From a virus, in IMG/VR virus record IMGVR_UViG_3300004460_000347, positions 1 through 31,880 of that record: 31,880 bases of DNA; one strand, written 5' to 3'. Below, piece after piece: positions 7,003-31,746 of the stretch. How positions within the stretch are numbered: position 1 is the first letter of the stretch; each line of letters starts with the position of its first letter. The notes beneath the pieces were generated by a model that was given only the letters and a program-made list of their open reading frames with translations, was not told the DNA's origin and ran no database searches. The position numbers were made by a program, and so were the translations under genes.

Positions 7003-7530
7003 ATGGATAAATTACAAACACTTGCAAAGCATCACAAAGATTGGGTGAGAATCGTCAATAGTTTTGGCGAATACTTCTTAGCTGATGACATTGTACAAGA
7101 AACATATATTAAAATTATACGTTTAAATCATATAGATAAGATAGTTACTGACTCAGTAAACAAAAACATTATGTGGTTAATCCTGCGAAGTGTTTACGTT
7201 GATCATTTAAGAGCTAGAAAGATTGAAAGCGTATCTATTGACGATTGTGTGAAGTTAAGTTATGATGATTGCAACGTAGAAAAACACGAAGCATTTAATA
7301 TAATTGAACAAAAGATACAGGAAGAAGTAGACAAATGGCACTGGTACGACATTAAACTATTTAATCTATACAGAGAATCAAACTTATCAATGCGTGAGAT
7401 AGCAGAAGAAACAGATATAAGTTTGACTTCTATATTTAACACATTAAAGAACTGTAAGGAAAGACTTAAAGAATCAATTGGAGAAGATTTTGAGGATTAT
7501 TTAAACGAAGATTTTGAACTAATAAAATAA
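7003..7530 (+). CDS. ECF-like sigma factor, putative late-gene regulator
   Basis: 175 residues. A region-2-like segment (ADDIVQETYIKI, about 27-38) is followed by a region-4-like helix-turn-helix (LSMREIAEETDISLTSIFN, about 128-146) and a basic helix. This is the sigma-70 family layout without region 3. It is the first gene of the late arm, directly upstream of packaging genes, so it may redirect host RNA polymerase to late promoters. The TerS gene lies further on, so confusion with a small terminase is unlikely. Confidence 0.75.
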   Translation: MDKLQTLAKHHKDWVRIVNSFGEYFLADDIVQETYIKIIRLNHIDKIVTDSVNKNIMWLILRSVYVDHLRARKIESVSIDDCVKLSYDDCNVEKHEAFNIIEQKIQEEVDKWHWYDIKLFNLYRESNLSMREIAEETDISLTSIFNTLKNCKERLKESIGEDFEDYLNEDFELIK

Positions 7531-11061: not shown

Positions 11062-11708
11062 CAGGATTCTACGACATATTAAATAAACTGAAATGGCATT
11101 TCGACAATGATGAGATTGTTAACTCAGTTACACAAGGTGATATCTTTCAGGTTGACTTAAATAAACAGACTATCTTTCCATTAACTCACATCATGGTTAA
11201 TAGTTCTACACTGGGAGATAATACAATGAGCTTTAATGTTTCTATTTTAGCAATGGATATAGTGGACATTTCCAAGTCAGAAGTGATTGATATCTTTCAA
11301 GAAAATAACAACGAACTAGACGTACTTAATACGCAACACGCAGTATTAAATAGAGCTTATCAGCAGATGCTTCACGGTAATCTTTGGGACTTACAATTTG
11401 CAGTAGCAGGAGAACCTACATTAGAACCATTTACAGAACGATTCGAGAATTTACTAGCAGGATGGACAATGACATTCGATGTTACTATTCCTAACGATAT
11501 GACAATATGCGACACTGGAAGCTACGCACCTTTCTGTTCACCTTCATTTGTCATAAACACGGATGGAAGTTATACTGCAACGATTCAGAGTGGAGAAACT
11601 CTTACGTTACCTAACACGACATTGAATCTACAAATAGACGGAACACAAGTATCAACATCAACATTTGCAACTTTAAGCAATCAAACAATAAATTTAGTAT
11701 GGCAATAG
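11058..11708 (+). CDS. Tail or neck structural protein, conserved in flavobacterial phages
   Basis: 216 residues. The blocks FYDILNKLKWHF, DLNKQTIFPLTHIMVN, FNVSILAMDIVD and FTERFENLLAGWTMTFDV mark a family I associate with Bacteroidota phage tails. A role as tail completion or terminator protein is plausible. The last 55 residues form a separate beta-rich domain (DGSYTATIQSGETLTLP) of a kind often attached to virion proteins in this phylum. The start overlaps the -1 frame stop. Confidence 0.65.
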   Translation: MTGFYDILNKLKWHFDNDEIVNSVTQGDIFQVDLNKQTIFPLTHIMVNSSTLGDNTMSFNVSILAMDIVDISKSEVIDIFQENNNELDVLNTQHAVLNRAYQQMLHGNLWDLQFAVAGEPTLEPFTERFENLLAGWTMTFDVTIPNDMTICDTGSYAPFCSPSFVINTDGSYTATIQSGETLTLPNTTLNLQIDGTQVSTSTFATLSNQTINLVWQ

Positions 11709-30579: not shown

Positions 30580-30993
30580 ATGAAAAACGATTTAATAGAA
30601 CGAGTAACGTACTTAATAGAAAGAGACGAACTGAATAAACGAAATAGACGAAAAGAAAACATTTACAAGAAGTGCTTTCTGATGAACCAACTGAGAAAAG
30701 AGGAACTTACCTTTAATGAAATAGGAGCTTACTTCAATCAGCATCACGCCAGTGTAATTCACAACATTCAAACGCATAAAAATCTCTTGCAGTATAACAA
30801 GGATGAATATATGGATATCGTGCGTGAATATCAAGTTTTTTTAGTTGATTCAAAGTACATTCTACAGCCTAGAAACATCATTGACGATGTAAACGGATGC
30901 ACAAGCCTTTACAAGTTACTACGTGTGAAAAGATGGATTGCAGAAGGCAGATATAATAATTTACAAGATGAAGCAACTTTATTAGAAGTTTAG
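30580..30993 (+). CDS. Protein with DnaA-domain-IV-like helix-turn-helix
   Basis: 137 residues. The stretch LTFNEIGAYFNQHHASVIHNIQTH (42-66, in two parts) resembles the signature of DnaA domain IV, in which EIG, F, and HxxVIH pattern residues contact DnaA boxes. There is no AAA+ domain, so it cannot unwind DNA by itself. It may bind an origin or promoter region; the repeats in 29309-29609 and inside the next gene are possible sites. The TAG stop at 30991 lies just before a promoter element. Confidence 0.72.
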   Translation: MKNDLIERVTYLIERDELNKRNRRKENIYKKCFLMNQLRKEELTFNEIGAYFNQHHASVIHNIQTHKNLLQYNKDEYMDIVREYQVFLVDSKYILQPRNIIDDVNGCTSLYKLLRVKRWIAEGRYNNLQDEATLLEV

Positions 30994-30996
30994 CGT

Positions 30997-31004
30997 TATA
31001 TTTG
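30997..31004 (+). promoter_or_regulatory. Promoter -7 element before the structured leader
   Basis: TATATTTG, a perfect TAnnTTTG. A start site near 31008-31011 would put the first hairpin at the very 5' end of the RNA. No clear TTG at the -33 position. Confidence 0.55.
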
Positions 31005-31007
31005 TAC

Positions 31008-31107
31008 AGGTGTTGCAGACCTTTAAAAAAATTATTGAAAGTCCATTAGGGAGTAGTGCTGCAACCACGAAACTTAATGGGCTTTTTTATTGCGTAAAAT
31101 GTTGCAG
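31008..31107 (+). ncRNA. Structured RNA leader with two complementary 7-nt loops and a terminator stem
   Basis: Hairpin 1 is AGGT-GTTGCAG-ACCT (31008-31022). Hairpin 2 has an outer stem AGTCCATTA (31040-31048) with TAATGGGCT (31075-31083), then AGT/ACT (31052-31054, 31072-31074), then GTG/CAC (31056-31058, 31066-31068), and the loop CTGCAAC (31059-31065). The two 7-base loops are exactly complementary. Hairpin 2 is followed by TTTTTTATT, so it is also a terminator. A third GTTGCAG lies at 31101-31107, right before the ATG of the replication gene. This is consistent with an attenuator or kissing-loop switch. Confidence 0.65.
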
Positions 31108-31746
31108 ATGGCAAAAGACAAAAAATCGTTTATCCTTTACGTTGATCAAAAGGACTTATGGAACAAACTACCTGATGAGATTGCAGGTCAATTAATCAAA
31201 CACATTTATAGTTACGTTAGTGATGAGAATCCAAAGAGTAATGACTTAATTGTAGAAATTGCATTTGAGCCAATCAAACAACAGTTGAAACGTGATCTTA
31301 AATTATTTGAAGAAAAGCGAGTAAAAAGAAGTGAAGCAGGTATGGCAGGAGCTAACAAACGATGGCAAGAGATAGCAAACGATAGCAAACGCATTAGTAG
31401 CATAGCAAAAATAGCTGATAATGTTAATGTTAATGATAATGTTAATGTAATAGATAATATAGACTATCAAGCGTTGCTTGAGTTTGTGAATAAATCTTTT
31501 GGTAGAAACTTCAAGGTAGTTGGTGATAAGGTACAACGCTCTTACAAAGCACGATTAAAAGACGGATACAAAAAAGAAGATATCATAAACGCCATTAAGA
31601 ACTGCAAAGAAAATCCATACCACAAAGAAAACAACTACCAGTATTGTACACCTGAATTTTTTAGTAGAGCTGAGACCTTAGATAAATATGCTGACAGGAC
31701 AATTAAAACGGAAAGTGATAGTATATTAGCAATCCTAAATAAATAA
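31108..31746 (+). CDS. DUF6291-like phage replication protein with internal repeat linker
   Basis: I start at 31108 (MAKDKKSFIL), the usual beginning of this family, though ATG 31099 and TTG 31090 are in frame upstream. 212 residues. The N-terminal domain (about 1-90: GQLIKHIYSYVSDENPKS, FEPIKQQLKRDLKLFEEKR) is DUF6291-like. A variable linker rich in Asn, Val and Ser comes next, then a C-terminal domain similar to the phage replication C-terminal family (FGRNFKVVGDKVQRSYKARL in part; YCTPEFFSRAETLDKY). Such two-domain proteins are replication initiators or loaders. The linker DNA holds tandem repeats, discussed separately. Confidence 0.75.
   Translation: MAKDKKSFILYVDQKDLWNKLPDEIAGQLIKHIYSYVSDENPKSNDLIVEIAFEPIKQQLKRDLKLFEEKRVKRSEAGMAGANKRWQEIANDSKRISSIAKIADNVNVNDNVNVIDNIDYQALLEFVNKSFGRNFKVVGDKVQRSYKARLKDGYKKEDIINAIKNCKENPYHKENNYQYCTPEFFSRAETLDKYADRTIKTESDSILAILNK
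31351..31465 (+). repeat. 10-bp tandem repeats followed by an AT-rich stretch (candidate origin)
   Basis: Blocks in strict 10-base register: GCTAACAAAC (31351), GATGGCAAGA (31361), GATAGCAAAC (31371), GATAGCAAAC (31381), a diverged block (31391), CATAGCAAAA (31401). After them, 31411-31465 is built of GATAAT, GTTAAT and similar AT units. The region codes for the protein's linker. Iterons plus an AT-rich unwinding stretch inside the initiator gene are the arrangement of the lambda origin. Confidence 0.6.

Follow-up and report, generated by a model that had tools for sequence, protein, structure and literature searches.

An RNA element with two hairpins whose loops are exact complements lies near the right end of the viral DNA analysed here, directly in front of a replication gene. 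This DNA, which we call the window, is the entire IMG/VR virus record IMGVR_UViG_3300004460_000347 (31,880 bases), and all the features described are on its plus strand. Both hairpins and their loop pairings are established by sequence comparison with related viral elements. The element is probably an RNA-based brake; its transcription, the direction of regulation and any action in trans are what we infer from the sequence. The best fit is a self-antisense attenuator, i.e. a leader RNA that would apply a feedback brake to the replication operon. We adopt this tentatively, our opinion being close to evenly divided.

The element begins at TATATTTG (30997-31004), presumably a promoter -7 element of the Bacteroidota type. 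It is kept in all of the related elements (about 75) as TAnn[TC]TTG at constant spacing, even behind a different upstream gene. The 5′ end of the RNA is expected to lie within a few nucleotides of the first hairpin, H1 (31008-31022), in which an AGGU/ACCU stem encloses the loop L1, GUUGCAG (31012-31018), with a folding energy of -2.7 kcal/mol. An A/U-rich linker containing a conserved AUUAUU (31023-31037; alignments A1-A4) leads to an intrinsic terminator (31038-31088; -18.3 kcal/mol) with arms at 31038-31049 and 31073-31085 and a U6 tract at 31083-31088. Within the terminator an internal loop of AGUA opposite GAA bears an apical hairpin (31052-31071), whose loop L2, CUGCAAC (31059-31065), is closed by GUG/CAC. 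L2 is complementary to the whole of L1 (duplex score -8.7) and also to L3, a third copy of GUUGCAG at 31101-31107 that adjoins the AUG of the downstream gene at 31108. The original prediction had claimed the two complementary seven-base loops, the terminator, the promoter element directly upstream and the third copy before the AUG, and each of these can be read directly in the sequence. Judged from its consensus, the AGUA/GAA internal loop is likely to be a bulged-G or loop-E-like motif. We note that an in-frame AUG at 31099 (AUG-UUG-CAG-AUG, 31099-31110) places L3 between two possible starts in the GUUGCAG subfamily, where its bases might serve as codons too. In the other subfamilies translation starts at the equivalent of 31108.

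General scans of the window were of little help. The terminator was missed by the terminator scan because its apical part exceeds the 8-nt loop limit, and sigma-70 and terminator consensus scans were uninformative, being the wrong fit for the phylum and the loop size. The single-strand fold (z -0.56) was uninformative too, since kissing pairs lie outside the folding model. GTTGCAG occurs nine times in the window, where 3.2 copies are expected. A descriptor requiring the promoter, the L1 hairpin and a terminator carrying the reverse complement of L1 matches this site alone in the window; Markov-shuffled sequence (0.96 Mb, taken on both strands) yields two matches. The loop arrangement is far beyond chance, as had been supposed for the three copies, and what decides the matter is that the loops covary among relatives.

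Searches with the proteins encoded on either side of the element led to more than 100 viral loci. About 75 related elements from viral contigs were examined. All have complementary L1 and L2, placed at near-constant positions, and 23 L1 sequences occur among them, part of the L1 assignments being made by eye (including three class-A rows in which the automatic search chose another string). Independent divergence of the two loops had been set beforehand as the outcome that would speak against the proposal; complementarity was never lost in these relatives. The leaders sort into class A, the type found in the window, and class B, in which an 8-nt L1 lies within a larger H1 loop. The spacing of L1 and L2 is 38-45 nt for class-A elements and 44-49 nt for those of class B, and in most elements the AUG is at about +102 to +128, near-constant whatever gene follows. 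Of 33 distinct class-A elements, 32 keep AGUA opposite GAA as the internal loop that separates the terminator stem from the kissing hairpin; the class-B internal loop is mostly GAA opposite GGA (26/39). A third class, C, is seen in other phages (L284, L285 and L287, at about 1380-1500); here L1 lies partly in the stem of a small hairpin, L1 and L2 match over 7-11 nt, and there is a copy at the AUG. Among 40 records searched with two covariance models, whose E-values are rough, none had more than one element. A match of the class-A model in Fpv5 (L186, E 0.027) was rejected on inspection as it has no L1/L2 pair. No element precedes the relative gene of Riemerella phage GDF21, and a DUF6291-profile scan of bacterial genomes matched only a Lactobacillaceae phage-like protein and no Bacteroidota prophage.

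Compensatory changes in both loops had been named as the thing to look for, and double changes are found in the kissing pair in two structural classes. In class B (24 sequences) 97.4% of cells are paired, compared with 69.3% for shuffled and below 48% for slid controls, and the covariation score is 0.772 against 0.225 shuffled; relatedness inflates the shuffled control, whereas the slid controls retain the relatedness and yet collapse. Both bases have changed in 21 of the 26 pairs of H1, terminator, apical stem and kissing helix taken together, including 4/5 in the H1 stem, 7/9 in the terminator stem and 6/8 in the kissing helix. MAFFT misregisters 6- and 7-nt loops, and class A was therefore counted on the rows with 6-nt loops only (alignment A8, 13 sequences, the L066 row being out of register at its apical stem and at the third copy). 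There 99.4% of cells are paired and 9 of 12 pairs doubly changed, with 4/4 in the H1 stem; the kissing helix is 100% paired, three of its six pairs being doubly changed and the other three invariant. Over both classes the kissing helix is 97-100% paired, with 9 of 14 pairs doubly changed. The two loops and the stems that carry them covary, as expected for a kissing-loop RNA.

The copy at the start codon changes together with the loops. Among class-A elements such a copy of L1 is located 0-7 nt 5′ of the start in the families GUUGCAG, GUCGCAG, GAGCAG, AGGCAG, AAGCAG, GGGCAG, GGACAG and AUGCAG, and L3 is also present where the downstream gene differs (L110 compared with the window). The class-B element L286 carries CAUCUCAC adjoining the AUG, and the class-C elements carry L3 as well, that of L285 pairing with L2 through one G-U. 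Across 12 families in three structural classes (families lacking a copy being left out), the match of L3 to its own L1 was 77 against a permuted mean of 40.8, and none of 200,000 permutations scored as high. L2 and L3 are 97.4% paired in the class-A alignment, with 3 of 6 pairs doubly changed. A single-base change can be followed through all three sites, GUUGCAG/CUGCAAC/GUUGCAG becoming GUCGCAG/CUGCGAC/GUCGCAG. An antisense segment thus lies between two complementary target sites on one leader in the window and in 12 families.

Phage isolates were scanned with the same descriptor; as a control, reversed sequence (0.82 Mb, read on both strands) gave two matches. The scan found the element in the Flavobacterium phages lillamy9-7 and tooticki6-1 (GUGAGACG), morran9-1 (GUGAGAAG), mumin6-1 and snusmum9-1 (GUGGAACG), elemoA (UGAGAGC), 11b (CGGGCAGG) and FCOV-F54 (CAUCCAC), and in Olleya phage Harreka_1 (GUGGUGG). 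Both loops again change jointly between related isolates. Cellulophaga phage phi19:3 probably carries this layout, with CUCUCACAA/UUGUGAGAG right before a DUF6291 gene; this was seen by eye and was not recovered by the descriptor. A second element with a distinct loop pair, GUCGUCG/CGACGAC, was observed in tooticki6-1 (L195, NC_048844.1) at 11590-11691, where it precedes gp32, an endonuclease gene. Virulence is ascribed to the LMO6/LMO9 phages (PMC7077304).

Comparison of flanking sequences indicates that leaders are swapped as cassettes between near-identical flanks. L1 differs in 133 of 154 pairs of phages that are 80% or more identical over 408 nt upstream. The flanks of L041 and L042 are 99% identical on both sides and their leaders 68%, with L1, L2 and stems differing on a conserved unpaired backbone. 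Between the window and L002 the flanks are 90% and 87% identical and the leaders, one of class A and the other of class B, only 49%. Exchange of this kind is well known for regions that govern immunity and incompatibility, and it is chiefly on this account that we consider action in trans.

The relatives also bear on how the gene could be expressed. No usable -7 element was found between the terminator and the AUG in the relatives compared, and the distance to the AUG is near-constant; the TATATTTG promoter would therefore express the gene only by read-through. A stable hairpin with a U-tract, i.e. an intrinsic terminator placed as an attenuator, stands between this promoter and a gene for which no other promoter was found. 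L1:L2 complementarity is largely limited to the loops in the relatives compared (alternative folds being sampled in part of them), and the pairing is therefore compatible with both hairpins.

We propose that transcription would start just 5′ of H1 and that most transcripts would end at the terminator, releasing an RNA of about 80 nt. A minor read-through fraction would be the only mRNA from this promoter. L2 would kiss L1 in cis and compete for L3 at the start site; in this way the leader RNA and the terminator loop would restrain the replication gene in elongation as well as in translation. Joint control of termination and translation, as originally suggested, is what we infer from this arrangement. 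Leader RNA from other genome copies could act in trans on nascent L1 or on L3. This would provide copy-number feedback. Phages whose loops are alike would also interfere with one another, so that new loop pairs would be at an advantage, and this could account for the cassette swapping.

Several observations weigh against this mechanism. L3 is absent from nearly all class-B elements, from the GUGCAG elements and from some other class-A elements among those examined. L3 is therefore optional, and start-site pairing cannot be a universal function. The idea that the terminator loop pairs with either the first hairpin or the start region holds in its first part for all elements examined, and in its second for the 12 families in which L2 and L3 change together. 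The sequence does not tell if termination is promoted or impeded by kissing, and the constant distance between L1 and L2 suits pairing in cis without demanding action in trans. Lastly, the class-A loops have a common CAG core, so that some cross-talk between variants might occur.

The constant spacing speaks for a purely cis-acting kissing attenuator, in which docking of L1 with L2 alters the efficiency or timing of termination on its own transcript and L3 is a secondary translational switch, also in cis. Complementarity mainly in the loops would allow H1, terminator and kissing pair to coexist, and a search for trans targets elsewhere in class-B phages gave none, each loop sequence occurring once per record; class-A loop 6-7-mers recur scattered in the phage, mostly away from start sites. 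The frequent exchange of loop pairs (133/154) is left unexplained by this reading on its own, and we consider it rather unlikely. The strong conservation of unpaired positions (AGUA/GAA in 32/33, and the AUUAUU linker) speaks for a ligand- or protein-binding scaffold, in which the kissing pair, together with the internal loops rich in purines (AGUA/GAA for class A, GAA/GGA for many elements of class B), would bind a factor from phage or host that governs read-through, as in riboswitches or the HK022 put RNA. A scaffold needs complementarity, but neither the wide diversity of pairs nor a covarying third copy at the start codon, and the unpaired parts differ among classes A, B and C; this seems improbable.

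Two further explanations have little to recommend them. The element has its own promoter and a strong terminator, and might be a stand-alone small RNA gene that precedes another gene by coincidence, but there is no usable promoter between terminator and AUG, the AUG lies at a near-constant distance whatever the gene, and the copy at the start codon covaries. We regard this as very improbable. Still less credence can be given to DNA operators, i.e. repeats that are repressor sites of shifting specificity and not RNA loops. Two direct copies and one inverted copy do lie within 96 bp beside a promoter. But the repeats fall exactly in loops whose stems covary independently, U-G and G-U pairs are found (class-B L010, and L2:L3 of L285), class-B phages have no further copies, and the copies lie 3′ of the promoter, the last some 100 bp away.

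The self-antisense attenuator that we favour would act on the gene at 31108-31746, which has a DUF6291 domain and a Phg_2220_C-like end by domain search and matches replication-initiation/O-like proteins in PHROGs, bearing out its earlier designation as a replication gene. The upstream gene (30580-30993) has a DnaA C-terminal-like helix-turn-helix (Bac_DnaA_C, E 9.8e-6, under the Pfam cut-off), and its stop is 3 bases 5′ of the -7 element. The expected tie between the element and DUF6291 genes did not hold; across relatives the leader is retained while the downstream gene is exchanged. In L048, L066, L132 and L141, which have the same leader type, the downstream genes are of the replication-initiation type with swappable N-terminal parts and a constant Phg_2220_C-like end. 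A short AATGTTAATGTTAATGATAATG repeat within the DUF6291 gene (31417-31450) codes for a variable D/N/V linker. Elsewhere in the window, 7003-7530 encodes a sigma-factor-like protein (phrog_1740, E 2.5e-11), which might read the leader promoter.

No named RNA family had been recognised in the original prediction, and even at permissive thresholds Rfam gave only chance matches for the window and 11 relatives. We thus have an RNA family absent from Rfam that precedes the replication genes of many flavobacterial phages, cultured virulent ones included. A literature search found no description of this leader RNA, although absence there is no proof. It is possible, if doubtful, that the elements form a widespread and previously undescribed class of Bacteroidota phage leaders in which the terminator loop is itself the antisense regulator of its own 5′ hairpin and start region, the RNA being a copy-number sensor and the hypervariable, swapped loops marking interference groups between lytic phages. 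The natural variants are a large, ready set of matched loop pairs, and would amount to a naturally occurring panel of kissing-loop attenuators that differ in specificity. RNA copy control and mutual exclusion in lytic phages become directly testable with them, in existing laboratory host-phage pairs.

Parts of the arrangement are found in known systems. In ColE1, RNAI and RNAII are two RNAs from opposite strands that control the plasmid primer. Their 6-7-nt loops likewise pair over the full length, but here there is one leader with a terminator. In P1 and P7 the antisense RNA C4 and its ribosome-binding-site target are co-transcribed from one promoter. Antisense and target are similarly on one transcript here, but C4 is processed, and the present element has no meaningful Rfam match. 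The HK022 put RNA, too, is structured, lies where an early phage operon begins and acts on termination in cis; put, however, contacts RNA polymerase and suppresses pausing and termination, while this element includes the terminator (PMC9378689). The pT181-type attenuator shares kissing hairpins tied to an intrinsic terminator in a replication-gene leader, with the loop setting specificity (PMC4878617), but in our element the complementary loop lies in the terminator of the same RNA. The antisense RNA of the pT181 type comes from the opposite strand, and no conserved minus-strand -7 element was found here within 400 nt in the relatives compared. The antiterminator of that type pairs with the terminator 5′ arm; L1:L2 pairing is largely limited to the loops. 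The layout of the element equals that of the CI RNA of phage P4 (PMC4825925), where one leader has seqA-CI(seqB)-seqC, an antisense segment complementary to upstream and downstream sites, in an operon for replication functions and with premature termination as the proposed outcome. RNAs of the P4 CI and C4 type act in trans and maintain lysogenic immunity; there is no evident lysogeny here and no sequence relation was found. The P4 CI RNA is freed by processing (PMC4825925). In our element, by contrast, the apical loop of an intrinsic terminator serves as the antisense segment, the pairing is between loops, and the downstream site adjoins the start codon.
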